From Coriobacteriia bacterium (lineage in GTDB: Bacteria; Actinomycetota; Coriobacteriia; Anaerosomatales; Anaerosomataceae), in contig JAFGAG010000072.1 in assembly GCA_016933785.1 (NCBI GenBank), forward strand, positions 1 to 38,636: a DNA stretch of 38,636 nucleotides, in the 5' to 3' direction. Position 1 is the first letter of the stretch. Every line of letters begins with the position of its first letter. Position numbers and translations under genes: made by a program. Positions 546-38,044 of this stretch are shown in pieces. Below the pieces are notes generated by a model. That model searched no databases. It was not told the DNA's origin and saw nothing but the letters and a program-made list of their open reading frames with translations.

Positions 546-1031
546 TTAACCGTGTCCCCCGCCGGCCATCATCTCGACCGCATGCTCGAGCACGCCTTCG
601 ACGAATCCGAACGACTCCCGGACCGCCTTCTCGGAGCCCGGCATGTTGATGATGAGCGTAGAGCCGCGCTGTCCGGCAGTCGCGCGGGAGACCATCGCCC
701 GGCTCGTGATCTTGAGGCTTTCGCCCCGGATGACCTCACCGATGCCGGGGACCTCCCGATCGCAGATCGAGAGAGTGGTCTCGGGGAGCACATCACGCGG
801 ACTGAGGCCGGTGCCGCCGGTCGTGAACACGATGTCACAGTGATCCACATCGGCCATCTCGATGAGTGCCGCCGAGATCGCGTCACGGTCATCGGGGAGC
901 AGGTGATAGGCCACGACCTCCCAGCCGTGCCCGGCGGAGAGGGACTTCAGTGCAGCGCCCGAGGTATCCTCCGCACCGCCCGCGGCGCGGGTGTCCGAGG
1001 ATGTGAGCACGCCGATCCGCAGGGCAGCCAT
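546..1031 (-). CDS. MogA/MoaB-family molybdopterin adenylyltransferase-like protein
   Basis: 161 aa; IVFTTGGTGLSPRDVLPE motif typical of MogA/MoaB; ATG overlaps the upstream MOSC gene stop. Confidence 0.9.
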   Translation of the reverse strand: MAALRIGVLTSSDTRAAGGAEDTSGAALKSLSAGHGWEVVAYHLLPDDRDAISAALIEMADVDHCDIVFTTGGTGLSPRDVLPETTLSICDREVPGIGEVIRGESLKITSRAMVSRATAGQRGSTLIINMPGSEKAVRESFGFVEGVLEHAVEMMAGGGHG

Positions 1032-1474
1032 CAGACATCTGCCTCCACGACCGTGATCTCGGCGCCGACGGAGACGTCCCCGCCCTCGAGCACGACGGCG
1101 AAAATGCCCTCCTTGGGCATGACGCAGTCACCGGCCTGGTAGTAGATGGCGCACTTGGTGTGACACTCCTTGCCGATCTGGCTCACCTCGAGCAAGGACG
1201 AGCCCACGCGGACACGGGTGCCGACCGGCAACGACACGAGATCGATGCCCCGCGTGGTGATGTTCTCGGCGAAGTCACCCGCATCCACGTCGAGACCCTT
1301 GGCCTGCATCTTGGCTATCGACTCCTCGGCGAGCAGGCTCACCTGACGGTGCCAATCACCGGCGTGGGCATCCCCCTCGAAGCCGCTTCCCACGACAAGG
1401 GTGCCGCTGGCTCCCGGGGTCTTGCGGACGGTCTTCTTCGTCGAAAGATTCACCGATGTGACGGTCGCAGCCAT
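1031..1474 (-). CDS. MOSC domain-containing protein
   Basis: 147 aa; GDAHAG...RQVSLLAEESI...GDFAENITTRGIDL...VSQIGKECHTKCAIY is the classic MOSC pattern with conserved Cys. Confidence 0.9.
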   Translation of the reverse strand: MAATVTSVNLSTKKTVRKTPGASGTLVVGSGFEGDAHAGDWHRQVSLLAEESIAKMQAKGLDVDAGDFAENITTRGIDLVSLPVGTRVRVGSSLLEVSQIGKECHTKCAIYYQAGDCVMPKEGIFAVVLEGGDVSVGAEITVVEADV

Positions 1475-1477
1475 TCG

Positions 1478-1978
1478 TCAGTCCTCCTTGCGGGTGAGTC
1501 CATCATCAGTACGCGTCCAGTCACCTGAGGCGCCGCCGGACTTCTCCAGCAGGCGAACGTCAGCGATCTCCATGCCACGGTCGACCGCCTTGCACATGTC
1601 GTAGAGCGCTAGCGCGGCTGTCGCCGCGGCCGTGAGCGCCTCCATCTCGATGCCGGTCTTGCCGTCGGTGGCACAGGTGGCGGTGATGTGGACGCAGGCG
1701 TCTCCGGGCTCGAGCTCCACGGCGACTTTGGTGATGGCGATAGGGTGGCAGAGCGGTATGAGGTCGGCAGTGCGCTTGGCGGCCTGGATACCGGCGATAC
1801 GCGCGACAGCGAAGACATCGCCCTTCGGCGACCGGCCCTCGACTATCATCGCGAGCGTCTCTGGCTTCATATGGATCGTCGCTCCGGCCACCGCGACACG
1901 GTGTGTCACGGGTTTCGTACCGACGTCGACCATGTGCGCCGAACCCTGGCTGTCAAGATGTGTCAGGTGATCGCCCAC
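1478..1978 (-). CDS. moaC: Cyclic pyranopterin monophosphate synthase MoaC
   Basis: [16 protein letters not shown]...[21 protein letters not shown]...[33 protein letters not shown]. Probable GTG start at 1978 just after the moaA stop; the ORF track start at 2050 would overlap moaA. Confidence 0.93.
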
Positions 1979-1982
1979 TGCC

Positions 1983-3005
1983 TCAGCCTCCGATCTGCGA
2001 CATGTGTCGTACGGTGCCATGCTGCTGGTTGTGGCCCTCAGGCTTCGCACGCAGCGCTTGACGAATGAGTTCTAGAACGTCCTCATCGGTACCCGTGCGT
2101 AGCGCCGTTCGGACATCGATCTCGTCATCCGAGAAGAGGCACGTACGAAGACCGCCATCTGCGGTCAGGCGTAGCCGGTTGCACTCTCCGCAGAAGTGGT
2201 GCGACAAGGGTGCGATGACGCCAAGTGTGCCAGGGGCGCCGGGGAATCGGTAGTAGCGCGCCGGGCCCCAACCACCGGGCGCATCATCGCGGGAGACCGG
2301 CGTGAGCTCGCCGAGTCCCGCGGCAGCTCCCTCGGTAGCGATACGCTCGAGGATCTCATCGGTGGGGACGTGGTCGTCCTCGCTCCAGCCGTCGGCCTCG
2401 GCGCTCGCACAGCTGTGCTCGCCCACTTCGCCGACCGGCATGTACTCGATGAAACGCACGTGCACCGGACGATCAAGCGTCATGCGCGCGAAACCGAGGA
2501 GATCCTGATCGAGCGAACGCACCACGACCACGTTGAGTTTGACCGGGTCCATGCCCGCGTCGAACGCGGCCTCCATGCCCTCAAGCACATCGTCGAGTCG
2601 GCCCCGACGAGTGATGCTCGTGTAGATGTCGGGGTCGAGCGTGTCGAGGGATATGTTGATGCGCTTCAGTCCAGCCGCCGCGAGATCCGCCGCATACTGG
2701 GACAGCAGCGTCCCATTGGTGGTGAGCGCAATCGCCTCGATGCCTGTCGTTTCGCGCAACCGCCTCACGTGATCGACGATGCCCTGCCGCACGAGCGGCT
2801 CGCCACCGGTGAGGCGAATCTTGCTGATCCCCTCGCCCGCCGCGATCCGCGCGAAGCGCTCTATCTCCTCGAAGGAGAGGATATCCTCGTGTGCCTTCCA
2901 CTCGATGCCGTCAGGCGGCATGCAGTAGACGCACCGCAGGTTGCACCGGTCGGTCACGCTTATGCGCAGGTAGTCGATCCGCCTGCCGAACGTATCAGTC
3001 GCCAT
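1983..3005 (-). CDS. moaA: GTP 3',8-cyclase MoaA (radical SAM)
   Basis: [12 protein letters not shown] radical SAM motif, [11 protein letters not shown]-terminal [23 protein letters not shown] second cluster, C-terminal GG. Confidence 0.96.
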
Positions 3006-3077: not shown

Positions 3078-3605
3078 TCATGGCCGGTCGTCTCTCGTGC
3101 TGTTGAGGAACGTGCGCTCGACGAGATCGGCCAGTCCCTCGGCATCATCCAGACCGAAGACCGGGATATCCGTCACTTCAAGCTCGCCGTTGTCGGTCAC
3201 CAGCGCGAAGAGCTCGGAGGTGTCGCAGACGAGTTCGGTGGAGCGGGCCCTGCGCGACACCTCGATCCGCACGTCACCCGCCCGCCGGTAGCCCTCCGTG
3301 AGCAGGATGTCCACGCCGGAGGCGAACGCCAGCAGTTCTTCGAGCGTGGCTTCATGATCCATCGAGCGCGTCATGCCGAGCTTGCTCGGCGAGCTCACGA
3401 GGGAGACCTCCGCGCCGGCCTTGGCGTGGCGCCATGAGTCCTTGCCCGGGACGTCGATGTCGAAGTCGTGCACGTGATGCTTGACGCTGCCCACGCGGTA
3501 GCCGCGCTGTGCGAGCGCACGGATGAGCCGCTCCATGAGCGTCGTCTTGCCCGAATCACTCTTGCCGACGACGGAGACGACGGGGATGCCGGTCCCCGCG
3601 CTCAC
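3078..3605 (-). CDS. mobB: Molybdopterin-guanine dinucleotide biosynthesis protein MobB
   Basis: VVSVVGKSDSGKTTLMERLIRAL...VGSVKHHVHDFDIDVPGKDSWRHAKAGA; GTG start at 3605 abutting the upstream gene stop. Confidence 0.92.
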   Translation of the reverse strand: MSAGTGIPVVSVVGKSDSGKTTLMERLIRALAQRGYRVGSVKHHVHDFDIDVPGKDSWRHAKAGAEVSLVSSPSKLGMTRSMDHEATLEELLAFASGVDILLTEGYRRAGDVRIEVSRRARSTELVCDTSELFALVTDNGELEVTDIPVFGLDDAEGLADLVERTFLNSTRDDRP

Positions 3606-3606
3606 G

Positions 3607-3828
3607 TCAGAAGCACCCGAGGTCGCAGTTATGGACCCGTAGCCCGGCAGCGTCGGCCGCAGCGCCAGCGACCTTGTAGGACACGCCCTGGTCCTCGGCG
3701 AACTTGCGCAGCACCGGGCACGTGATCTTGCCATCGCGCGCCTTGGCTTTGACCGCTTCCATCATCTCGTCGGTCACCTGCGATGCCCACCGGGGGTCTT
3801 TGAACTTCTGGTTCTCACTGCTGCTCAC
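3607..3828 (-). CDS. Small conserved-looking protein with C-terminal NCDLGCF
   Basis: VSSSENQKFKDPRWASQVTDEMMEAVKAKARDGKITCPVLRKFAEDQGVSYKVAGAAADAAGLRVHNCDLGCF; GTG start at 3828 overlaps the moeA stop. Helix-turn-helix-like text followed by a CxxxC tail. Confidence 0.75.
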   Translation of the reverse strand: MSSSENQKFKDPRWASQVTDEMMEAVKAKARDGKITCPVLRKFAEDQGVSYKVAGAAADAAGLRVHNCDLGCF

Positions 3829-5075
3829 GCCGTACCCTCCTCGATATCGATCCGTATACACATGACCTCGGTGCCGGCGGCGACGAACGACTCGCCCTCG
3901 GGCAGGGAGATCAGGCAGTTGCCGCGGTGCATCGCTGTGAGCAGCGCGGAGGATTGGTTGCCCGAGATCGCCGCGGTGTAGCCGCCGCCGGGTGAGCGCG
4001 TGAGACGCCCGCGTAGGAAGTACCGGCGGTCGGACTTCTTCTTCGTATCGTGGTTGAGCGTGGCCACCACGCGAGGACGCGCGAGCGCGGTGAATCCTGC
4101 CATCTTGCGTATCGCCGGACGGACGAACATCTCGAAGCCCACCATCGTCGACGTGGGATTACCCGGAAGGCCGAAGAACGGCGTCCCGCCGATGGTGCCG
4201 AACGTCTGCGGTGCGCCCGGGCGCATGGCGACCTTCCAGAAGTCGAGTTTGCCCATCTCCTCGAGCACCTTCTTCACGACGTCGAAGTCACCCATGCTCA
4301 CACCACCCGTGGTGACCATGAGGTCGAACTCGGGCGCACGCTTCAGGAGTGCTCGCGTGTCCTCCTCGGTATCCCGCGCGATGCCGAGAACGTACGGCTC
4401 TCCGCCGGCCTGAAGCACCTGCGCCGCAAGCGAGTGCGAGTTGGAGTTGCGGATCTTGCCGGGACCGGGTTTCACCGTGACCTCGACGAGCTCGTCGCCG
4501 GTCGAGACGATGGCCACCCGTGGCCTACGGCGGACCAGCAGCGTGTCGTGCCCGACGGATGCCGCAAGACCGATGGCGGCCGGTCCGATGGTCTCGCCGG
4601 CGAGTAGGACCGCCTCACCCTCGCGCACCTCCTCGCCGCGCGAGCGGATGTTCTCACCGGGTGTGACCGGCCGCAGCACCTCGACGGTGCCACCGGTGCT
4701 TCCACCGTTGCTGCCGGCGCGAGTCCTCTCGACCATCACCACCGCGTCCGCGCCATCCGGCACCGGAGCCCCGGTCATGATCCGGGACGCCTGACCAGGG
4801 CCGACCGGGATCTCCGGCTGGACACCTGCGGGGATGTGATCGACGACCTGGAGCGTCACCGGAGACGCCTCGGACGCATCACGCACGTCAGCGAAGCGCA
4901 CGGCATAGCCGTCCATGGCCGAGTTGTCGAAGGGTGACACGTCGATGTCCGAGATGACATCGGCCGCGAGCACGCGGCCAAGAGATTCAAGGAGCGTGAC
5001 CCGCTCGGTATCGAGCGCCACGATCCTGGAGAGTACCTGTTCCTGTGCCTCTTCGACGCTTATCACCTCAGTCAT
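3825..5075 (-). CDS. moeA: Molybdopterin molybdenumtransferase MoeA
   Basis: SPFDNSAMDGYAVR, GPGQASRIMTGAPVPDGADAVVMVE, STGDELVE, TTGGVSMGDFD, FGLPGNPTSTMVGFEMFVRP. Confidence 0.95.
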   Translation of the reverse strand: MTEVISVEEAQEQVLSRIVALDTERVTLLESLGRVLAADVISDIDVSPFDNSAMDGYAVRFADVRDASEASPVTLQVVDHIPAGVQPEIPVGPGQASRIMTGAPVPDGADAVVMVERTRAGSNGGSTGGTVEVLRPVTPGENIRSRGEEVREGEAVLLAGETIGPAAIGLAASVGHDTLLVRRRPRVAIVSTGDELVEVTVKPGPGKIRNSNSHSLAAQVLQAGGEPYVLGIARDTEEDTRALLKRAPEFDLMVTTGGVSMGDFDVVKKVLEEMGKLDFWKVAMRPGAPQTFGTIGGTPFFGLPGNPTSTMVGFEMFVRPAIRKMAGFTALARPRVVATLNHDTKKKSDRRYFLRGRLTRSPGGGYTAAISGNQSSALLTAMHRGNCLISLPEGESFVAAGTEVMCIRIDIEEGTA

Positions 5076-6474
5076 CCTCTCTTGACGTCACGTTGATGCG
5101 TGACGCGTTCGTATAGACGACCAGCTTACCACCGCGCGCGTATCCCACGAGCGTGAGCGACGCGCGCTCGGCGATGTCCACCGCAAGATCCGTCACCGCG
5201 GTACGGGAGACCACGATCGGGATGCGAGCCTTGGCCGCCTTCACGGCCATCTCGTAGCTGATGCGTCCCGTGGTGAGCAGAACGCCGTCGCGCGCGTCGA
5301 TGCGGTCGAGCCAGATGCGGCCGAAAAGCTTGTCGAGCGCGTTGTGGCGGCCGACGTCCTCCCGGACGACGAGAAGCTTGCCGTCGACGGCGATGCCGCA
5401 GGAGTGCATCCCACCTGTATCCCGGTATGAGGAGGCCGACCGCGCAAGCTGGCCGACGAGGTCGTAGATCTGCTCGGAACCGATACGTGCATCCGAGACC
5501 ACCGGCTCGATGCCCCTCGCGTGGCCGACGGAAGCGAACGTGATGCCCTTGCCGCATCCGGACGTCACGTAGCGCTTGCGCTCCGCGACATCGGGTGGCG
5601 CCTCCTCGCGGGAGCGCACGTAGACGAGGCCGCGCTTGTGATCGACGTCGACGCTCTCAAGGGCTTCGCGGTCGGTGATGAAGCCCTCGGACAGCAAGAA
5701 TCCCACACCCAGGTCGGCGAGATCTTCAGGCGTCCCCTGCATCGTGGCGATCTCGCCGTCGTTGAGGAACACCGTGATGGGCCGCTCCGACGGCATGCCG
5801 CGTGCCGCGCGGGTGCCGACCTCGATCACCGAAACGCGAGTGGCTGGTTGCTCGTCCGAGTCCGATGCGAGGTCACGCGACTCCAGCAGCTCCTCCGGAG
5901 TGTTGATGTTGACGATACTGCGGAGGCCGGGGTCCACGTCCTTGAACGTATCGAGAGGGACCTCGACCGTCTCGACTGATGACGCGATCGCGATGAGACG
6001 GCGACGCCCCGATGCCAGCACCCGCCGCGCCTCAGGCAGACAGCTCACGTGGTAGAGGGCGAGCAGCGGCTCGGGACCCTTCTCGCCCACCGGCATCACC
6101 ATCTGGGCGCCGGCACGCGCGTCCCAGAGCGCCCGGATGACCGAGGGTTCGAGCCAGGGCATGTCGGCTGCCACCGCCAGCACCCACTCATCCTCGGCGG
6201 CCGCAAGCGCCGTCACCAGCCCGCCGAGCGGGCCCTGGTAGGCGACCTCATCGGTCAGGATCCGCACCGAAGGCGGCAACCCCGCCGCCTCGATAGCTTC
6301 AGGGCGGTTCGTGACCACAGCGACATGCTCGCACACGCTGGCCGCAGTCTCAGCGACGCGCCGCACGAGCGGCTCGCCATCGAAGAGGAGCAGCGTCTTG
6401 TCGACGCCCATCCGCTGGGACCGGCCACCCGCCAGAACGGCGGCAGTGACCGGGATCCGGTTCGTTTCGTGCAT
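5068..6474 (-). CDS. MobA-FdhD fusion: molybdenum cofactor guanylyltransferase domain + formate dehydrogenase accessory sulfurtransferase domain
   Basis: N-terminal AAVLAGGRSQRMGVDKTLL...AVAADMPWLEP (MobA); C-terminal ITVFLNDGEIATMQGTPEDLADLGVGFLLSEGFI...TSGCGKG...GGMHSCGIA...VREDVGRHNALDKL...TTGRISYEMAVKAA (FdhD), one continuous frame. ATG at 6474 preceded by GGAGGT. Confidence 0.93.
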   Translation of the reverse strand: MHETNRIPVTAAVLAGGRSQRMGVDKTLLLFDGEPLVRRVAETAASVCEHVAVVTNRPEAIEAAGLPPSVRILTDEVAYQGPLGGLVTALAAAEDEWVLAVAADMPWLEPSVIRALWDARAGAQMVMPVGEKGPEPLLALYHVSCLPEARRVLASGRRRLIAIASSVETVEVPLDTFKDVDPGLRSIVNINTPEELLESRDLASDSDEQPATRVSVIEVGTRAARGMPSERPITVFLNDGEIATMQGTPEDLADLGVGFLLSEGFITDREALESVDVDHKRGLVYVRSREEAPPDVAERKRYVTSGCGKGITFASVGHARGIEPVVSDARIGSEQIYDLVGQLARSASSYRDTGGMHSCGIAVDGKLLVVREDVGRHNALDKLFGRIWLDRIDARDGVLLTTGRISYEMAVKAAKARIPIVVSRTAVTDLAVDIAERASLTLVGYARGGKLVVYTNASRINVTSREDD

Positions 6475-6538
6475 ATGCCTTACCTCCATCGCGAGTGCCG
6501 GCCCGCGAGCACCGCACCCGGTGGGCACAGCTTCCGTA

Positions 6539-7669
6539 TCATACCCCAGTGGGTACGCCGACGGCAGACTGCACTCTCACGGAGGTCGCCTTGAACAGCG
6601 CGAGCACCTCCGATCCGGGCTCGAGGCCCAGTTCGCGCGATGCCGCACGCGAGACCGATGCGGCGATTCTGAGACCGTTCGATGAAAGGCTCACGCGATC
6701 GGTACTGCCCATGCGCTCGACCGCCTCCACGCGCATGCGCAGACGGTTGCGTGCCGACGACGGGGGCAACTCCGCGTCCCCGCTGAACAGCGTGACGTCC
6801 TCGGGCCTGATGCCGATGAGGACGTCGACGCCCACCGGGAGATCGGTACGCGCGTGGACGTGTTCGGAAGCCACCATGATGTCGGCTATGCCCTCCTCGG
6901 TAGCGACTATCCCACCGCGCAGGGCGGTGTCCATGCCGATGAAGTCGGCGATCCACTCATCGGTGGGCAGCGTCATGACCTCGTCCACCTCGCCGGTCCG
7001 CACGACCCGACCCTCGCGGATGATGCTCACCCGGTCGGCGACCACCATCGCCTCGTCCTGATCGTGTGTGACGTAGAGCGCCGTGACACCCTCGGCGGAG
7101 AGGATCTCGGAGAAGTCGGTCACGAGCCGACGTTTGATGAGCGGGTCGAGGTACGAGAGCGGCTCATCAAGGAGCAGGATGCGCGGCTCGAGCACAAGCG
7201 CGCGGGCGAGCGCGACCCGCTGCGCCTCTCCTCCCGAAAGCCTCAGTGCAGAGGACTTCTGGGTGCCGCCGAGACCCACGCGCTCGAGCGCCGCGGCCAC
7301 GCGGTCGTCGCGCTCCGATCGGGGAACGCCGCGAAGCCTCAGCCCGTAGGCTACGTTCTCCGCGACCGTCCCTTTGAACAGATACGGGTTCTGGAAGACC
7401 GCCGCCATCATCATGCGGGCGTCCTTGTCCCCCGCCGTGACGGGGCGACCGTCCAGCGTGACGCGACCGTGCGTCGGCTTCTCCAGTAGTCCGAGCACGC
7501 GCAGGAGCGTCGACTTGCCGGAGCCGGATGGGCCGAGGATGGCGTGCGTCTCGCCGTCGCAGAGATCGAACCGCGCGACCTCCACCACGGTGCGCCGGTG
7601 GTAGCGAACGGTGATGTCTTCCCCCGTGATGATCGGCGTACCGCCGCAGTGATGCGTCCTAACGCTCAT
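6539..7669 (-). CDS. tupC: Tungstate/molybdate ABC transporter ATP-binding protein with C-terminal TOBE-like domain
   Basis: Walker A GPSGSGKST, signature LSGGEAQRVALARAL, Walker B ILLLDEP; adjacent to tupB/tupA. Confidence 0.9.
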   Translation of the reverse strand: MSVRTHHCGGTPIITGEDITVRYHRRTVVEVARFDLCDGETHAILGPSGSGKSTLLRVLGLLEKPTHGRVTLDGRPVTAGDKDARMMMAAVFQNPYLFKGTVAENVAYGLRLRGVPRSERDDRVAAALERVGLGGTQKSSALRLSGGEAQRVALARALVLEPRILLLDEPLSYLDPLIKRRLVTDFSEILSAEGVTALYVTHDQDEAMVVADRVSIIREGRVVRTGEVDEVMTLPTDEWIADFIGMDTALRGGIVATEEGIADIMVASEHVHARTDLPVGVDVLIGIRPEDVTLFSGDAELPPSSARNRLRMRVEAVERMGSTDRVSLSSNGLRIAASVSRAASRELGLEPGSEVLALFKATSVRVQSAVGVPTGV

Positions 7670-8393
7670 AGCGGCCGCCCGACTGCTGCACGCGGGTGAA
7701 GCCGTTCATTATCACGAACGAGATCCCGATCAGGATCAGCCCGAGGGCAAGGGCGAGGCCGAAGTTGCCCTGGCCCGTCTCCAGCTGGATGGCCGTGGTC
7801 ATCACGCGCGTCTTGCCAGCGATGTTGCCACCCACCATGTTCACGGCGCCGACCTCGGAGATGATGCCGCCGAAGCCCGCCGCGACCGCCGCCATGACGC
7901 CCCGCCGGGCCTCCTTCACCGTCAGGACGGCCTCCTGCAGTTTGGACGCGCCGAGGGACCGAGCCTGGAGACGAAGCTCTGTGGGGACCGACGCGATCGC
8001 CGCAAGCGTCACACCCGTGACGAGCGGCGTGGAGATGATGACCTGCGCGATGATCATCGCGGTGACCGTATACAGCACGCGGGGCATATCCTGCCCCACC
8101 CACGCGAGATAGAGGTCCCAGATCGGTCCGCTCCGGGAGAGAAGCATGTAGACAGTGAGTCCGACGACCACCGGAGGAAGGCCCATACCGGTGTTGACGA
8201 TCGCTATGATCAGCCCGCGACCGCAGAACCGATGCGCCCCGATGAGGTATCCGAGTGGAACGCCGATACACATCGCGAGGAAGAGTGAGATCCCGGAGAC
8301 CCTCAGCGACAGGCCGATGATCTCGTAGAGCGCGGCGTCACCGCCGAACAGCAGCTTCACCGAGTCCACGAGCGCGTACCAGAAGACTTCCAT
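7659..8393 (-). CDS. tupB: Tungstate ABC transporter permease
   Basis: Hydrophobic; GMGLPPVVVGLTVYMLLSRSGP...ALAAIASVPTEL..ARSLGA...GGIISEVGAVNMVGGNI typical of TupB. Confidence 0.92.
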   Translation of the reverse strand: MEVFWYALVDSVKLLFGGDAALYEIIGLSLRVSGISLFLAMCIGVPLGYLIGAHRFCGRGLIIAIVNTGMGLPPVVVGLTVYMLLSRSGPIWDLYLAWVGQDMPRVLYTVTAMIIAQVIISTPLVTGVTLAAIASVPTELRLQARSLGASKLQEAVLTVKEARRGVMAAVAAGFGGIISEVGAVNMVGGNIAGKTRVMTTAIQLETGQGNFGLALALGLILIGISFVIMNGFTRVQQSGGRYER

Positions 8394-8471: not shown

Positions 8472-9359
8472 TCACCCGGCGTTCGGGAAGAACAGCGGTG
8501 CACCGAACTTCTCGACACCGTACTCGCCGATGATCGCCTGGGCCTCGTCACTGACGATCCAGTCGGCAAAGACCTGGGCGCCCTCCATGTTGGTGGCGTC
8601 GGTCACCGGGATGACACCATACTGGTTGAATAGTACCGCGTCACCCTCGCACAGGATCTCGAGCTGCAGGTCGTTGTTCATGTTCAGGTACGTGGCACGG
8701 TCGGTGAGTGTGTAGGCCGCCATCTCGGAGGCCATGGTGAGCACGTCGCCCATGCCCTTGCCGGCCGAGTTGTACCAGCCGCCGGCCGGTGTGATGGCAG
8801 ACTTCTCCCACAGCGCCTTCTCAGCCGTGTGCGTGCCGGATTCGTCGCCGCGCGAGATGAACGTTGCACCTGCATCGGAGATCTTCTTCAGTGAGTCGGC
8901 GACCGTGGCACCCTTGATCCCCGCAGGATCGGCGGCCGGGCCGACGATGATGAAGTCGTTGTACATGACGTCGTGGCGATCGATGCCGAAGCCGTCGGCC
9001 ACGAAGGCCTCCTCCTTGGCCTTGGCGTGCACCAGGAGCACATCGGCGTCCTTGTTCTGGCCGAGCTCGAGCGCTTCACCGGTACCCACGGCGATGACGT
9101 TCACCTTGTACTCCGGGTGCGCCTCCTCGAAGGCCGGGATCAGCACTTCGAACAGGCCGGAGTCCTGGGTGGACGTGGTGGACGCGAGGATGAGGTCGGT
9201 GGTCTCGATAGGCTCCTCGGCGACTGGCTCTTTCGCGGCGGGTTCCTCGGCGGCGGGCTCCTCTTCAGCCGCGCAGCCCGCGAGCGAGAACACGAGGGCG
9301 AACGCGAGGAAGACCACGCCGTAGCGCCGGATAGCCTTGCCCCTCAAGCGGTCGATCAT
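8472..9359 (-). CDS. tupA: Tungstate ABC transporter substrate-binding lipoprotein
   Basis: Lipobox FSLAGC, then LILASTTSTQDSGLFEVLIPAFE (TupA TTTSTQDSG hallmark), DVLLVHAK, FISRGDESGTHTAEK. ATG at 9359 with AAAGGAG 6 nt upstream. Confidence 0.95.
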   Translation of the reverse strand: MIDRLRGKAIRRYGVVFLAFALVFSLAGCAAEEEPAAEEPAAKEPVAEEPIETTDLILASTTSTQDSGLFEVLIPAFEEAHPEYKVNVIAVGTGEALELGQNKDADVLLVHAKAKEEAFVADGFGIDRHDVMYNDFIIVGPAADPAGIKGATVADSLKKISDAGATFISRGDESGTHTAEKALWEKSAITPAGGWYNSAGKGMGDVLTMASEMAAYTLTDRATYLNMNNDLQLEILCEGDAVLFNQYGVIPVTDATNMEGAQVFADWIVSDEAQAIIGEYGVEKFGAPLFFPNAG

Positions 9360-9361
9360 GG

Positions 9362-9470
9362 AACGCTCCTTTCCAAGTCCGGGAGGCGGAGCCGTTTCTG
9401 GCTCCACCCTATGGGCCCCGTCGCCGTGGCGGCCGCTGTTCCGCGGTAGGCGTTGGGGGCTCGGAGGCTC
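9362..9470 (-). ncRNA. Candidate molybdenum/tungsten cofactor riboswitch (Moco RNA motif-like) in the tupA leader
   Basis: Minus-strand RNA: CCUCCGAGCCCCCAACGCCUACCGCGGAACAGCGGCCGCCACGGCGACGGGGCCCAUAGGGUGGAGCCAGAAACGGCUCCGCCUCCCGGACUUGGAAAGGAGCG-uuccAUG. Closing pairings CUCC:GGAG and CCAA:UUGG; 9-bp hairpin GGUGGAGCC-AGAAAC-GGCUCCGCC (9385-9408, one G-U); 3' portion CGCCUCCCG...UUGGAAAGG resembles my recollection of the E. coli moaA Moco leader. The SD AAAGGAG is part of the closing stem. Confidence 0.75.
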
Positions 9471-9565
9471 ACCGCCCGCGCATCGGGCGCGGCACGATAA
9501 AGTGCATCTTAGCGTAATACTCGGACGACGCAAGCGGCACAGGGCCCGGCCGATGGGCGCAATCG

Positions 9566-10453
9566 CTAGAGTGCGCCCCTGAGATGATCCGCGAGCGCAT
9601 CCGCAGCCCTCGTGAGAGACGTGCGGGGAAGCACGAGGAAGAGCGGCCGCGCTACCGGGAATCCGGCGCCCGGGACAAGAGCGACCGTGCCCAGCTCGAG
9701 CGCCTTCTCGGCGACCTGCCTGCTCACGATTCCGAGGCCCATGCCCCCCTCGACCGCGCTCACGATCGCTTCATTCGTGCCGAGCTCCATGACGATCGCG
9801 AGATCGGCAGGGTCCACGCCGCTGCGCCGGATGATCTCTTCGGCGGCGATACGGGTCCCTGACCCGGCCTCCCGGACGATGAAGGGCTCGCCGGCCGCGT
9901 CGGAGAACGTGACCGCAGGACCACCGGCCAGCTTGTGCTTCGCCGGGCAGATGAGCACGAGCTCGTCGGTCCCGAGCGGCTCGTAGCGGACGCGAGCGCC
10001 GGGGACCTCCGCCCCCGTCATCCCGAGATCGGCCTCGCCGCGGGCGACATGCTCCACCACATCGGCCGAGTCATAGACCCGAAGGGTGGCGCCGACCTTC
10101 GGGTACGCCCGAAGGAAGGTGCCGAGTATGCGTGGGAGCAGATACTGACCCGGAGTGGTCGAGGCGGCGATGGTGATCCGCCCGGTGACGACGTCACCCA
10201 TCGACTCGATGGCGTGATGGGCCTCGTCCACCTCGGCGAGGATCCGCCGAGCGTAGGGCACGAGCATCTCCCCCGCCTCCGTGAGGCCGATCTTGCGGTA
10301 ACCGCGATCGAAGAGCGTCGCTCCTACGTCGGACTCCAGGGACTGCACGTGCATGGTCGCCGCCGGTTGTGAGATGCCGAGCGTGCGAGCGGCATCGGAG
10401 AACGAGCGATGGTCGACCACCGCTATGAAGGTCTTCAGCTGGCTGATGTTCAC
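9566..10453 (-). CDS. LysR-family transcriptional regulator
   Basis: N-terminal wHTH NISQLKTFIAVVDHRSFSDAARTLGISQPAATMHVQSLESDVGATLFDRG...LTEAGE and LysR substrate domain. GTG start at 10453 preferred over the ATG at 10477. Confidence 0.93.
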   Translation of the reverse strand: MNISQLKTFIAVVDHRSFSDAARTLGISQPAATMHVQSLESDVGATLFDRGYRKIGLTEAGEMLVPYARRILAEVDEAHHAIESMGDVVTGRITIAASTTPGQYLLPRILGTFLRAYPKVGATLRVYDSADVVEHVARGEADLGMTGAEVPGARVRYEPLGTDELVLICPAKHKLAGGPAVTFSDAAGEPFIVREAGSGTRIAAEEIIRRSGVDPADLAIVMELGTNEAIVSAVEGGMGLGIVSRQVAEKALELGTVALVPGAGFPVARPLFLVLPRTSLTRAADALADHLRGAL

Positions 10454-10532
10454 GGGCGGCTCCCTCTCCGGGTGCATTCATGCTAACCCACAGCCGGGAC
10501 TTGCGGGAATCGGGCGGTATGCGATACTCATG

Positions 10533-28280: not shown

Positions 28281-30356
28281 CTAGACCCCCAGCTTTCCGG
28301 CCGACTCGAGCGCGTCGGCAACGTCCGGGAGGCCGACCTCTTCAAGCGTCGCTCGGGTGGGCCAGCCTGTGGCGAGATCCCAGCCCTCGAGCGTGTAGAA
28401 GCGGTCCTTCCACTGCTCGACGCCGTCGATATCGAGCGCGCGGCCAAGCGCGTTGATATACGTCCACTCCCCGTCCACCTTGCCGGCAAGCGGGTAGAAC
28501 GGTCCGACGAGGCTCGTCTCGAGCGGGACCTGGTAGATATACGGTGCAAGCTTCACGATGTCGCGGTGGCGACCCTGCAGCGACCAGATCGCGTTGTCGA
28601 GATTCCAGATCTTCCGACCGAGTTCGATACCCTCGGCGTAGGTCATGTCGTCCCCGGTCACCGCATTCCAGAAGAGCGGCTCACCGTCGCCGGTCATGCC
28701 AACATCGTCAGCGGCCGCGAAGTTCGCCAGGTCGGGCCACCTGAAGTCGCAGTAAAGCGCGCTCTGTTTCCAGAATCGCGTGTAGTGCCGCTGCCACGAC
28801 ACCAGCTTGGCCATCGACTCCGAGTAGATGTTCTCGGTACTGAAGTCGACCATGTCCATATCGTCCTCATAGGGCACCATCTTGGCGGTGACGATCTCGG
28901 CATACCGCTCGGCTGTGATCGGCACGTCGAGCCCGGCGCCCATGTGGTTGATCACTGCCCAGAAGTGGGCGTTGAGCCCGTGCTCGTTCATGTCTCGCTC
29001 GCCCATGATCGACCCGTAACCCCACTCCACCTCCGTACGAGGGTCGTACCCGTGGTTGGCGTAGCCCCAGTACGGGAAGTCGAGAATACCGGTCCCCCAG
29101 TCTTCTTCCAGTCGGCCCCACTTCTGTGCGGCTCGAACGAACCCTTCGGCGATGTCTTCGCCGATGTCCTCGCGCATTGCGACCTTGGTGATGAAGTCCA
29201 CCGCGAACGAGGTCTCTCCGATGGTGGAGAAGTCGAGTTTCGTGTCGATCTCGAGGCCGGATCCGAGAATACCCATCTGGTTCAGCGCGTACAGATAGCT
29301 CAGACCCCGGGCAAGCTCGTAGGAGTTGATGCCGTAGCGCTGCACGAGATCGGTGGCGATCACCGACGCATCGGTGTGCGCGCCATGCTTTAGCGCATCG
29401 AACGTGGTGTACACGCCGGTCTCCTGGCACGACGACTCGTTGGCCAGCCCGTCGCTCCAGCGTGGACGGCATCCGGCGATGCAGCCCTGGCACGCCTGCG
29501 GGCCCATGGTCACCTCGGCCTTGCGCTTGAAGAACAGCGTGGGCGATGGCGCCCTGCCGAGCGAGGGGCCATTAGGCGGAGCCGGCTGCCCCGTCTCTGC
29601 GCCGAACTCGTCCTTCGCGAGCATGCGTGCGTTGAACAGGGCGATCGGATCGGCGATCTCCACCGAACCGGTCCCCACCACACTGATCGCCTTGAGGTTC
29701 TTCGAGCCGAACACCGCACCAAAGCCGCCCTGGCCGGCGCCGTTACCGGCGTCGTGGATGAGACAACCGAGACTTGAGAGGTTCTCTCCGGCGGGGCCGA
29801 TCGTCACGATCGCCGACCTCTGCGTGGTGCGCCCCGCGTCGCGCGCGGCGCCCACATTGTCCCAGCCGTGTGCTTCGTCCCCCTTCTGCTCCCAGATCGA
29901 CTTCTGCGTCTCCTGGGTGTCCTTGCCCCACAGTCCAGCAGCGTCGCGGAACTCCACGGAGTCGTTCACGATGTCTATCCAGACCGGAGCCTCGGACTTG
30001 CCGGTGATCACGACACCGTCCCAGCCCGCGTACTTGAGCTGTCCTCCGAACCGCCCACCGAAGTTGGAGCGGGTGAACCAGCGGATGGGGTAGCCCGCCG
30101 CACCGATTCCCTGTACCTCTACGCGGCCTGAAGCCGAGGGCACCATCGTGCCCGACAGCGGTGAGGTCATCATCGTGACGACGTTCTTAGGGTCGTCCCA
30201 CCCCACGTTCTTGTCCTCCACGAGATCCCAGAAGATCGCCGATCCCATACCGTGGCCGCCGCCCCACTGCTTGTATTGCCCGGTGTCGATCACCGAGTGC
30301 TCTCGCGCGGTGAGATCCAGCACCAGGATCTTGCCGCTGTAACCGTCCTTCGCCAT
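28281..30356 (-). CDS. Aldehyde:ferredoxin oxidoreductase family tungsten-pterin oxidoreductase (copy 1)
   Basis: GYSGKILVLDLT..., NFGGRFGGQLKYAGWDGVVITGKSE (pterin-binding AFOR_N), GNGAGQGGFGAVFGSKNLKAISV, CQGCIAGC cluster motif and later ALYCDFRWPD; ATG at 30356 with AGGAGG. Confidence 0.93.
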   Translation of the reverse strand: MAKDGYSGKILVLDLTAREHSVIDTGQYKQWGGGHGMGSAIFWDLVEDKNVGWDDPKNVVTMMTSPLSGTMVPSASGRVEVQGIGAAGYPIRWFTRSNFGGRFGGQLKYAGWDGVVITGKSEAPVWIDIVNDSVEFRDAAGLWGKDTQETQKSIWEQKGDEAHGWDNVGAARDAGRTTQRSAIVTIGPAGENLSSLGCLIHDAGNGAGQGGFGAVFGSKNLKAISVVGTGSVEIADPIALFNARMLAKDEFGAETGQPAPPNGPSLGRAPSPTLFFKRKAEVTMGPQACQGCIAGCRPRWSDGLANESSCQETGVYTTFDALKHGAHTDASVIATDLVQRYGINSYELARGLSYLYALNQMGILGSGLEIDTKLDFSTIGETSFAVDFITKVAMREDIGEDIAEGFVRAAQKWGRLEEDWGTGILDFPYWGYANHGYDPRTEVEWGYGSIMGERDMNEHGLNAHFWAVINHMGAGLDVPITAERYAEIVTAKMVPYEDDMDMVDFSTENIYSESMAKLVSWQRHYTRFWKQSALYCDFRWPDLANFAAADDVGMTGDGEPLFWNAVTGDDMTYAEGIELGRKIWNLDNAIWSLQGRHRDIVKLAPYIYQVPLETSLVGPFYPLAGKVDGEWTYINALGRALDIDGVEQWKDRFYTLEGWDLATGWPTRATLEEVGLPDVADALESAGKLGV

Positions 30357-30409
30357 TGCATTACCTCCTGGTATTCGCTGCGTCGTGCAGCGCGTGTTCG
30401 TGTGACCGT

Positions 30410-31153
30410 CTAGTGCGAGGCAGCAGATGCCTTGGGGCTCACCATGCCTGCGTCGTCAATCGGGTAACCAATCTGCGCCCAGCCCGCATCTCGAAGGTTC
30501 ACGACGTAGCCTTCCTTCGACTGCAGGGGGATCTCCTTCGTGAAACTGATGGCGCCCGTGGGGCACACCTGCTCACAGGCGCGTGCACCATCCGGTCCCC
30601 CATCGCGATCCCAGAAGGGCGTGTCTTGGCACAGGTCGCACTTCTGCGCGTGCCTCTCCTCCGTGTTCCAGATCACGCGGCTCGTGTCCATCGGGCATGC
30701 GTTGACGCACTCCTGACAGCCGATGCACTTGGCCACATCCACCGTACGTACGCCTGTCTCGCTGTCCACGTGCATCGCGCCGGTGGGACACGCTTCCACA
30801 CACGCCGGATAGGGACACTGGCGGCACTGGATGATCGCTTTGTCGTTCGGGAACGACTCGAACGGATCCTGAACCACCTGTATGCGGCTGAGCGATAGGC
30901 TCTGCACGCCATGATGCGTGAGTGAGCACGCCATCATGCAGGTGCTGCAGCCCTGACACTTCAGTGGGTCCACCAGCAGGTAGCCATCCGAGGCCGGTAT
31001 GGCGATGACCTCGTCAGGTAGGAGGAACCCCTTGACCACAAGCCCGCCAAGGACCAGGCCGAAGCCCGCCCCGCCGACACCGGTGATGAACTCGCGGCGC
31101 GAGACACCCGTGCCCTCGGCGGTAACGCCGGTCGTCGTATCCTTGTCCACCAT
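30410..31153 (-). CDS. 4Fe-4S ferredoxin-type electron-transfer subunit with N-terminal Tat-like motif
   Basis: SRREFITGVGGAGFGLVLGGLVVKGFLL; many CxxCxxxC motifs (CQGCSTCMMAC, CRQCPYPACVEACP, CIGCQECVNACP, CDLCQDTPFW). Confidence 0.93.
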   Translation of the reverse strand: MVDKDTTTGVTAEGTGVSRREFITGVGGAGFGLVLGGLVVKGFLLPDEVIAIPASDGYLLVDPLKCQGCSTCMMACSLTHHGVQSLSLSRIQVVQDPFESFPNDKAIIQCRQCPYPACVEACPTGAMHVDSETGVRTVDVAKCIGCQECVNACPMDTSRVIWNTEERHAQKCDLCQDTPFWDRDGGPDGARACEQVCPTGAISFTKEIPLQSKEGYVVNLRDAGWAQIGYPIDDAGMVSPKASAASH

Positions 31154-32082
31154 CAGTCGTTTCCTTTCGCTATCGTCGGCCCTGGGTGCGCCGGGGTGTC
31201 GTGAGATGCCGGGTGCCCTCCCGCCGCGACCACCGCGGCGGACGGCTCATCACCGAGGGAGGCCAGCCAGCCGGCGTGTTCGTGGCGCGCGTACTCCAGT
31301 GGCACGTATCCGGTGAACATCGAGCGCAGCACCGGCCAGCTCATCGGGAGGATCGCCGCGAAGAACACGTGCGCGAGGAAGAACAGCAGCATCGCGATCG
31401 TGGCGACGTCGTGCGCCGGCGTTGCGACGGCCATCAGCCAGCCGGGCACGTCGATCGCGTGAGCCGCGACCTTGAGGAGCCCGGTGATGATGATTACCGC
31501 CGTAGACGCGAGCGCGAGAAGGTACGCCATCTTCTCGCTCTCGAAGTACTTGCGCTCAGGCGGGAACGCGAGCTTCTTGAACCCGAGCAGAAGACCGTAG
31601 TGACGCCGCGTGAAGTCGACCGCGTCGCGCGTGGGCAGATGCTCGCGGAAGCGATGGGCCGCGAGTAGTGTGTTCGCCCCGTAGTAGAAAGTACCGAACA
31701 GGAACACCAGCACCGCGGTGAAGTGGACGTTCATCGCCGCACGCACCGGTGCCCCGCCTCCAAGCAGCGTAGGAACGAACAGGAAGCCCAGTGCGATACC
31801 GCTCACCAGCAGCACCGCCGTCCCCACGCCATGGGTCCAGTGCTCGACGATCGCCGCGTCGTCGTGCCTGAGCACGCGGTCGCCTTCGATCACCGGGTCC
31901 CTGCGCCTCGTGAGCCCGGCAGCCAGCACACCCACAAACGGTGCCAGCCACACAAGCCATGTCGCCGAGTCGAACAGGAGGCCTGTCCCCTCGGCCGATG
32001 CCAAACGCGCCGCATAGGCGATGCCGATGGCGAACACCAGCACTGCGAGCGCTCCGGCGGTGGCACGTCGTGCCATGCGCAC
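31153..32082 (-). CDS. Membrane di-haem cytochrome b-like subunit
   Basis: Multiple TM helices with His in IVEHWTHGVGTAVLLVSG, MNVHFTAVLVFLF, TPAHDVATIAMLLFFLAHVFFAAI; ATG overlaps the Fe-S gene region in operon order. Confidence 0.87.
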   Translation of the reverse strand: MRMARRATAGALAVLVFAIGIAYAARLASAEGTGLLFDSATWLVWLAPFVGVLAAGLTRRRDPVIEGDRVLRHDDAAIVEHWTHGVGTAVLLVSGIALGFLFVPTLLGGGAPVRAAMNVHFTAVLVFLFGTFYYGANTLLAAHRFREHLPTRDAVDFTRRHYGLLLGFKKLAFPPERKYFESEKMAYLLALASTAVIIITGLLKVAAHAIDVPGWLMAVATPAHDVATIAMLLFFLAHVFFAAILPMSWPVLRSMFTGYVPLEYARHEHAGWLASLGDEPSAAVVAAGGHPASHDTPAHPGPTIAKGND

Positions 32083-35552: not shown

Positions 35553-35957
35553 TCACACCTGCACAGCATCCGATTCGAGCACTGACTCGCACTGCTCCAG
35601 GCGGTCGGTGAGCAGGGACCTGATATCGACCGCCAGGTACCCGAACGGCCTCCGTAGATCGACAGCATCGTCGAGAGCGTCGGCTAAAGCGGTGTCGCCG
35701 ATCTCGCTTCTCACCCACTGGATCAAAGACCCGGGCTCGACGTAGTGCACCTGCGCCAGCGGCGCTTGATGGAGGAGTGCCCTGGGCTCTTCCGGAATCA
35801 CGAGGAAGGCAGCCACCTCGCGCAGGCTGGCAAGCTTCACCGGACGGGTTCCCGCCATCGGTGTCAGGATCCCGCCTCTGAGTCGCACCTTGAGGTCGAC
35901 CGTGCGCAGGAAGTGCTCTGCCTCATCGCGTGTCGGAATCGTCAACACGGCGATCAC
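35553..35957 (-). CDS. Small AOR-operon-associated protein (copy 2), unknown function
   Basis: GTG start at 35957 overlapping the AOR2 stop; VIAVLTIPTRDEAEHFLRTVDLKV...PGSLIQWVRSEIGDTALADALDDAVDLRRPFGYLAVDIRSLLTDRLEQC. Confidence 0.75.
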   Translation of the reverse strand: MIAVLTIPTRDEAEHFLRTVDLKVRLRGGILTPMAGTRPVKLASLREVAAFLVIPEEPRALLHQAPLAQVHYVEPGSLIQWVRSEIGDTALADALDDAVDLRRPFGYLAVDIRSLLTDRLEQCESVLESDAVQV

Positions 35958-38044
35958 GCTCCCAGCCTGCCAGCGGACTCGAGCGAGTCGGCCACGTGGC
36001 TGAGGCCCAGCTCCTCGAGCGTGGCGCGCGTCGGCCAACCTGTCGCCGTATCCCAGCCTTCAAGCGCGTAGAACTTCGTCTTCCACTCTTCGAACCTCGC
36101 GCGGTCGAGTATCCGACCGGCCACGCTCTTATACGACCAGACGCCGTCCTCGTACACCGGCATGGTGTAGGGAGACTCGTACGTGGTCGTTCCCGGAGCG
36201 GCGCCAGTGAGGTAGTTGTACTCGGCAAACACTTCTACGTCCCGGTGGCGTCCCTGCAGTACCCAGATCGAACGGTCGAGGTTCCAGATCTTCCGACCGA
36301 GCTCCATGCCATCTTCAAAGGTCGTCTGGCCGCCAGTCACCGCGTTGAGGAACTTGGGTTCGCCCTCAGGCGTGATGCCCTCATAGTCGGGACCGTACGG
36401 GTTCACGAAATCGGCCCATGCCCAGTCGCAGTACAGCATCGACTGCTTCCAGAAGCGCGTGTAGTGGCGATGCCAGGCGACCGTCTTGGCCATAGCCTCC
36501 GAGTACACGCCCTCATCGCTGTAGTCGATCATCATCGGGTCATTGTACGGAGCGGTCTTCTTGCCGATGATCTCCGCGAGACGCTCGGCGCTGACAGCCG
36601 GCTCGATGCCGTGAAGGCCACAGATGGTGGGCGTCCAGTACACGTGCCAGTTGAAGTCGTGCTCGTTGATGTCCCGATCTCCGATAAGCGAACCGTACCC
36701 CCACTCGGCCTCGGTGCGGCTGTCGTAGTGGTGTGGAAGGCCGTACTCCTGCAGGGGCAGGATGCCGGACGTCGTGTCCTCCTCCAGCCGCCCCCACTTC
36801 TCTGCACATGCCCCCAGGCCCAGCGCCAGATCGGCTCCGATGTCTGTCTGGCTCAGGATGCTGTCGGCCAGCGCCTGCGCAAAGACAGCCGTACCCCACT
36901 GGTCGAACGGCAGCGATGACTGGATCTCCTTACCCTCACCGATGAGGTCCAGCTCACGAAGGTTCTCCAGCCAGAGCATCGTCGCTTCAAGAGCGAACGT
37001 GTTGAGCCCCGCGCGCTGTAGGATGTTCGCCGCTTTGACCGTCGCGTCGGTGATCTTGCCGTGTGCGGTGCGGTCGTGAGCGTTGTACCAGAACACGTCC
37101 ACGCAACTCGACTCGTTGCCCTCACCTGTCTCGGTGCGCGTACGACAGTTCCTGATGCATGCGGTGCATCCCTGCGGGCGGCTCTTCATTCCCTCGGGCA
37201 TATCGGTGATCGGTGTGATCGTTCCGCCGGGGTTCGACCCGAATGCCACGATACCCATGAGCGAATGTGGATTCTCTGCATTCCCCGCGTACGCGTAACC
37301 GTTCGCCCACAAACGGGCTTCCATCAACGCCTGCGGATCAGCGATCTCGACGCTTCCGGTGCCGAGGACGCTGATGGCTTTCAGGTTCTTGCTGGCGAAC
37401 ACGCCACCGAAGCCACCCTGCCCCGCACCGTTGCCCGCGTCGTGGACGAGTGCTGCCATAGGTCCGAACGTCTCCGCATTGGGACCCGTGGTGACCACGG
37501 CCGGCCGCTGTGTGGTGCGGCCGCTGTCCCTGCCGGTGCCTGCCTCGTTCCACGCGCCCTCGTGATCGAGGACGCTCGCCCAGATCTCTTCCTGCGTCTC
37601 GTAGGTGTCCAATCCCCAGAGTTCACCGGCATCCTCAAAGGTCACGGTACCGTTCACGATGTTGACCCACACCCTTGAGTCTGCCTTGCCGACGACAGCG
37701 ATGCCGTCCCACCCGGCGAACTTCAGTTGTGTCGAGAAGCGCCCGCCGAAGTTCGAGCGGGTATACCAGCCCGTGGGATGCGCCTGGATACCGATCGCTT
37801 GTACTTCGGTGCGCCCGGCAACCGCAGGGGCGAGTGTCCCTGACAGCGGCGAGGTCATGAGCGTGATCACATTCCCTGGATCCGTGCCCTTGACCGTCTT
37901 GTCCTCGCACAGATCCCAGAAGAGCGCTGAGCCGATGCCATGACCGCCGCCCCACTGCTCGTACTTCGCGGTCTCGATTTCCTCGACGGTCTTCGTCGTG
38001 AGGTCGATCTTGAGGATCTTACCTGCATAACCGTTTGCCATCAC
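35954..38044 (-). CDS. Aldehyde:ferredoxin oxidoreductase family tungsten-pterin oxidoreductase (copy 2)
   Basis: GYAGKILKIDLTTKTVEE, NFGGRFSTQLKFAGWDGIAVVGKAD, GNGAGQGGFGGVFASKNLKAISV, CTACIRNC and SMLYCDWAWAD; colinear with copy 1. Confidence 0.93.
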   Translation of the reverse strand: MMANGYAGKILKIDLTTKTVEEIETAKYEQWGGGHGIGSALFWDLCEDKTVKGTDPGNVITLMTSPLSGTLAPAVAGRTEVQAIGIQAHPTGWYTRSNFGGRFSTQLKFAGWDGIAVVGKADSRVWVNIVNGTVTFEDAGELWGLDTYETQEEIWASVLDHEGAWNEAGTGRDSGRTTQRPAVVTTGPNAETFGPMAALVHDAGNGAGQGGFGGVFASKNLKAISVLGTGSVEIADPQALMEARLWANGYAYAGNAENPHSLMGIVAFGSNPGGTITPITDMPEGMKSRPQGCTACIRNCRTRTETGEGNESSCVDVFWYNAHDRTAHGKITDATVKAANILQRAGLNTFALEATMLWLENLRELDLIGEGKEIQSSLPFDQWGTAVFAQALADSILSQTDIGADLALGLGACAEKWGRLEEDTTSGILPLQEYGLPHHYDSRTEAEWGYGSLIGDRDINEHDFNWHVYWTPTICGLHGIEPAVSAERLAEIIGKKTAPYNDPMMIDYSDEGVYSEAMAKTVAWHRHYTRFWKQSMLYCDWAWADFVNPYGPDYEGITPEGEPKFLNAVTGGQTTFEDGMELGRKIWNLDRSIWVLQGRHRDVEVFAEYNYLTGAAPGTTTYESPYTMPVYEDGVWSYKSVAGRILDRARFEEWKTKFYALEGWDTATGWPTRATLEELGLSHVADSLESAGRLGA

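Follow-up and report, generated by a model that had tools for sequence, protein, structure and literature searches.

The Moco RNA class (RF01055) was divided by Regulski et al. (2008) on the basis of P3, which was missing from 58 of 176 RNAs (PMC2408646). Genes of tungsten-cofactor metabolism were found in 17 of the 19 organisms having P3-less RNAs, and it was proposed that these RNAs sense the tungsten cofactor, Tuco (PMC2408646). In E. coli, the moaA riboswitch has P3, carries its ribosome-binding site in P1, responds to Moco and is insensitive to tungstate; when P3 was deleted from this RNA, control was abolished and no switch to sensing Tuco resulted (PMC2408646). The Moco RNAs of Syntrophomonas wolfei are P3-less and belong to operons of molybdenum or tungsten transport and MPT synthesis. 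They occur in multiple and tandem copies per genome, and putative intrinsic terminators follow the first two RNAs of a triple array (PMC2408646). In the accessible literature we found no demonstration of a selective tungsten-cofactor response of any P3-less RNA. The cofactor is unstable in its free form; a species described as tractable in the laboratory and as having both Tup and a pathway to Tuco is Eubacterium limosum (PMC13328260). The question since 2008 has been whether an RNA can tell W from Mo in a near-identical cofactor by lacking P3.

We analysed a stretch of 38,636 nucleotides (the window) from a coriobacterial actinobacterium of the order Anaerosomatales (OPB41), for which an earlier note had proposed a Moco/Tuco riboswitch in the tupA leader. 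The leader sequence quoted there agrees with the reverse strand of 9350-9470. The proposal was borne out by cmscan: RF01055 matches positions 9466-9366 of the minus strand significantly, with 58 bits against a gathering score of 36 (E 1.6e-11), and it is the sole match, with no other Rfam family found anywhere in the window. The features of the leader are as follows.

9366..9466, minus strand: Moco/Tuco riboswitch aptamer, P3-less subtype (RF01055 model positions 13-119, cmscan)
9463..9466, minus strand: P1 5' strand CUCC (GGAG partner paired in 99% of cells in 50 tupA leaders)
9411..9414, minus strand: 4-nt linker CCAU from P2 to the AGGG of P4, at the place of P3 (cmscan alignment)
9385..9408, minus strand: P4 hairpin, 9 bp, with the GAAA tetraloop at 9395-9398 (cmscan, sequence, alignment)
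9366..9372, minus strand: AAAGGAG, the tupA Shine-Dalgarno sequence, whose GGAG is the P1 3' strand (sequence)

Like the P3-less subtype (PMC2408646), the leader has P1, P2, P4 and P5, a GAAA tetraloop on P4, the AGGG and CCUCCC...GGAAAGG core, the Shine-Dalgarno sequence within P1, and MPT-synthesis and tungsten-related genes downstream; P3 is deleted in the Rfam alignment. The gene context of RF01055 is also present, with tupABC, mobA-fdhD, moeA, mobB, moaA, moaC and mogA downstream. Unlike the described members of the subtype, the RNA heads a 10-gene tup-mob-moe-moa operon conserved within one order, and in this genus there is an A-C mismatch by the tetraloop, which closes the P4 loop in the window's genome, and the linker reads CCAU, not CGAU. 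Judged by its sequence, the tupA leader genuinely belongs to the Moco class of riboswitches and, within it, to the P3-less subtype. Both the class and the subtype are already known, and this leader adds another instance. A second RF01055 copy, for example at AOR genes, was not found in the organism's own genome (77% complete).

For covariation we aligned 50 tupA leaders, namely the window's own and 49 from relatives. RNAalifold predicted 28 pairs, with two-sided changes at 17. When the named structure was scored on the same leaders, 17 of its 27 pairs had changed on both sides and 95.7% of cells were paired, so the covariation which the earlier note had expected in homologous leaders is present. 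The covariation score of 0.414 was equalled by none of 500 shuffles, which gave 0.168, and slid controls reached at most 0.094. The 121-nt leader also folds more stably than its dinucleotide shuffles (z -2.2). The hairpin GGUGGAGCC/GGCUCCGCC described in the note corresponds to P4 and shows genuine two-sided covariation. Its GAAA is invariant in the alignment; of the receptor expected in the P2 bulge, CCUA is present, but the other strand reads CACGG here. The closing stem CUCC:GGAG corresponds to P1 and is kept in 99% of cells. P1 is almost invariant, so that covariation cannot test P1 itself and the data are only consistent with it; such constancy is expected if P1 doubles as the ribosome-binding site. 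The other stem of the note, CCAA:UUGG, was rejected. Only 45% of cells can form it, and shifting the stem by 1-3 columns does just as well; CCAA sits in the P2 arm, and the GG of UUGG pairs in P5.

Behind the RNA, ten genes follow on the minus strand; the last two lines below give genes that lie 5' of it.

8472..9359, minus strand: tupA, tungstate-binding lipoprotein (NF041772 6.5e-61, below the equivalog cut-off; PDB 3lr1 1.9e-68)
7659..8393, minus strand: tupB-like permease (PF00528, NF038017; TupB 143 bits vs ModB 107)
6539..7669, minus strand: tupC/wtpC-like ATPase with a TOBE domain (PF00005 and PF03459; best NCBIfam WtpC)
5068..6528, minus strand: mobA-fdhD fusion (PF12804 and PF02634)
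3825..5075, minus strand: moeA, metal insertion (PF03453, PF00994, PF03454)
3078..3734, minus strand: mobB (PF03205)
1983..3005, minus strand: moaA (PF04055 and PF06463)
1478..2050, minus strand: moaC (PF01967)
1031..1474, minus strand: MOSC-domain protein (PF03473)
546..1031, minus strand: mogA/moaB (PF00994, TIGR00177)
9566..10477, minus strand: LysR-family regulator gene, immediately 5' of the leader (PF00126 and PF03466)
28281-30356 and 35954-38044, minus strand: AOR-type genes

TupA scores 206 bits with NF041772, whose curated equivalog cut-off is 400, and aligns over its length with solved TupA proteins, including PDB 3lr1, a 'periplasmic tungstate-binding protein'. In the order, 49 of the 55 tupA copies are preceded by the RNA at a distance of no more than 450 nt, and the same downstream gene clusters repeat across the 39 loci with sufficient downstream sequence. 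The AOR-type genes had been placed downstream of the operon; in fact they form units of their own 5' of it, with the same orientation, and within the window neither is accompanied by an RF01055 match of its own. At 28281-32082, an AOR-type oxidoreductase, a four-cluster Fe-S protein and a cytochrome b561-type subunit stand in a row, and this cluster looks like a membrane-linked tungsten enzyme.

We propose, with a probability of about 0.7, that the leader is an OFF-type, cis-acting translational riboswitch of the Moco class, P3-less (the proposed Tuco type), which senses a metal-pterin cofactor, likely in its tungsten form. The Shine-Dalgarno sequence had been taken to be the 3' half of the closing stem, and this geometry recurs at the tup loci: GGAG stands 6 nt before the start codon here and 5-8 nt before the predicted one at 49 of the 51 loci. 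Since the Shine-Dalgarno sequence sits within P1, ligand binding should repress translation, and the tupA leader is very likely a translational OFF switch. When the metal-pterin cofactor is ample, it would bind the aptamer core, most likely in the tungsten form, and stabilise P1 (CUCC:GGAG). The closed P1 would bury the Shine-Dalgarno sequence and reduce translation of tupA, and probably also that of tupBC and the mob/moe/moa genes further along the operon. When the cofactor is scarce, P1 would open, and tungstate uptake and cofactor synthesis would rise. We infer the ligand binding and tungsten as the metal, and we infer the direction of regulation from the E. coli moaA RNA, which likewise has its Shine-Dalgarno sequence in P1 and shares the predicted repression by cofactor; unlike this leader, it has P3, and the moaABCDE genes that it heads include no transporter. 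When the bare leader was folded, the P1-open and P1-closed forms came within about 0-4.4 kcal/mol of each other, depending on flank length. In the predicted open form, the first codons of tupA take up the 5' strand of P1, which leaves the Shine-Dalgarno sequence in a small loop. This modelled behaviour fits a switch but is no evidence for one, and the ON fold varies with flank length.

We also assessed whether the ligand carries tungsten or molybdenum. Anaerosomatales offers an unusually clean setting for probing the metal preference of a known sensor class. The order is a natural test because its RNAs are nearly all P3-less, most genomes have a transporter for tungstate and none for molybdate, and one genome is reversed in both RNA and transporter. 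From 61 genomes of the order we recovered 106 RF01055 RNAs. A short linker without P3 was present in 102 of them, and this near-universal loss of P3 is confounded with ancestry. The remaining four have a hairpin there and all belong to one genome, G040. It has modABC; its modAB genes, which score above or near the curated cut-offs, stand behind a P3-bearing RNA, and no match to tupA or AOR was found in it. Across the 61 genomes, tupA is present in 50, AOR genes in 52, and modA above its cut-off in 11, being absent at that cut-off in 50. The window's genome contains tupA and seven AFOR_C matches; modA had no match in it (77% complete) or in a complete congener. The absence of P3, tupABC as the usual transporter and the rarity of modA in the order support the tungsten cofactor, already named in the earlier note, as the candidate ligand. 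On these sequence data, sensing of the tungsten cofactor is the better guess.

Outside the order we used a wider set of RNAs, mostly from Bacillota and partly picked for having a tupA relative. Automatic calling of P3 erred on weak P2 arms, and P3 was therefore assigned by eye from the linker, with four unclear RNAs left out. RNAs before tup genes lacked P3 in 18 genomes and had it in 3, whereas for those before mod genes P3 was missing in 5 genomes and present in 7 (Fisher p = 0.016, for genomes that are non-independent, two of them standing in both P3-less groups). Thus, the link between P3 and the transporter is real but imperfect, and it falls short of the near-perfect association described in 2008. 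The strict rule that a P3-less RNA means tungsten was rejected as an absolute one outside the order, given the exceptions in 3 and 5 genomes. The P3-bearing RNAs before tupA, which are counter-examples to the rule, are L301 (G079), L335 (G257) and L366 (G328). Also outside the order, MoeA-first RNAs are mostly P3-bearing (12 of 15) and MoaA-first RNAs mostly P3-less (10 of 11).

It is possible, though we find it rather doubtful, that the same riboswitch recognises the metal-pterin cofactor, or molybdopterin, with no preference for W over Mo. Its association with tungsten would then be ecological, because the bacteria here mainly take up tungstate. Such indifference would agree with the P3-less RNAs before modA in G009, inside the order, and before mod genes in five genomes outside it, with the P3-bearing RNAs ahead of tupA in three, and with the fact that MPT genes are commonly targeted by both P3 types. 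It agrees less well with the association of P3 status and transporter type outside the order and with the E. coli Moco RNA, which ignores tungstate (PMC2408646) and thereby indicates that metal discrimination exists within the class. We give even odds to the fuller proposal that the P3-less RNA is selective for the tungsten cofactor and runs the tungsten regulon of the order, controlling uptake and synthesis by masking the Shine-Dalgarno sequence, and selenocysteine formate dehydrogenase, aldehyde oxidoreductase (AOR) and a diheme cytochrome through other copies, some of which apparently act by terminators.

These other copies bear on how the tupA leader works. P3-less RNAs precede formate dehydrogenase genes with one in-frame stop, a probable selenocysteine codon by sequence, at 38 loci (including L131 and L112), and further copies in the order precede AOR genes and a diheme cytochrome. 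Terminator-like hairpins lie between the aptamer and the formate dehydrogenase gene in the loci inspected. Hairpins followed by T-runs, read by eye past several aptamers in the formate dehydrogenase and GEGP-cytochrome leaders, suggest control by termination there. Control of the tupA leader by transcription termination instead of translation is nevertheless improbable: no terminator-like site was found in 9300-9700, the start codon comes just 6 nt after GGAG, and the spacing is uniform among tup loci. A consensus promoter was not found in 9300-9700 either. It is more improbable still that the aptamer no longer works and that the leader serves as some structured RNA or as a site bound by a protein, such as the LysR protein encoded upstream: a LysR gene is indeed conserved just upstream, on the same strand, at 28 RNA loci of the order, all of the tup type, but the AGGG, GAAA, CCUCCC and GGAAAGG core and all helices are kept well beyond the LysR-bearing loci. 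The LysR gene upstream of the leader may possibly provide a second layer of control.

The translational riboswitch that we prefer for the tupA leader is a single one, in contrast to the triple array of S. wolfei; as in that species, tandem RNAs do occur in some relatives. In L147, a tandem pair of P3-less RF01055 aptamers, at 1501-1623 and 1887-2007, precedes a gene for a GEGP diheme cytochrome, and a hairpin with a T-run comes after each aptamer. The 5' arm of these hairpins, CCUUUCC, could pair with the GGAAAGG of the aptamer itself, which suggests an antiterminator. At L115:9501-9621 and L129:9501-9623, RF01055 is followed by a terminator-like hairpin, and no Mo/W gene was recognised directly downstream; hrcA/dnaJ-like genes follow in the former and an alanine-racemase-fold protein in the latter. 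Two RNAs lie within one tup locus in L171 (1501-1630 and 2316-2446) and in L174 (1501-1626 and 2357-2484). In both loci, a small lipoprotein-like gene (about 213-237 aa) is located between the RNAs, and a longer TupA variant follows the second.
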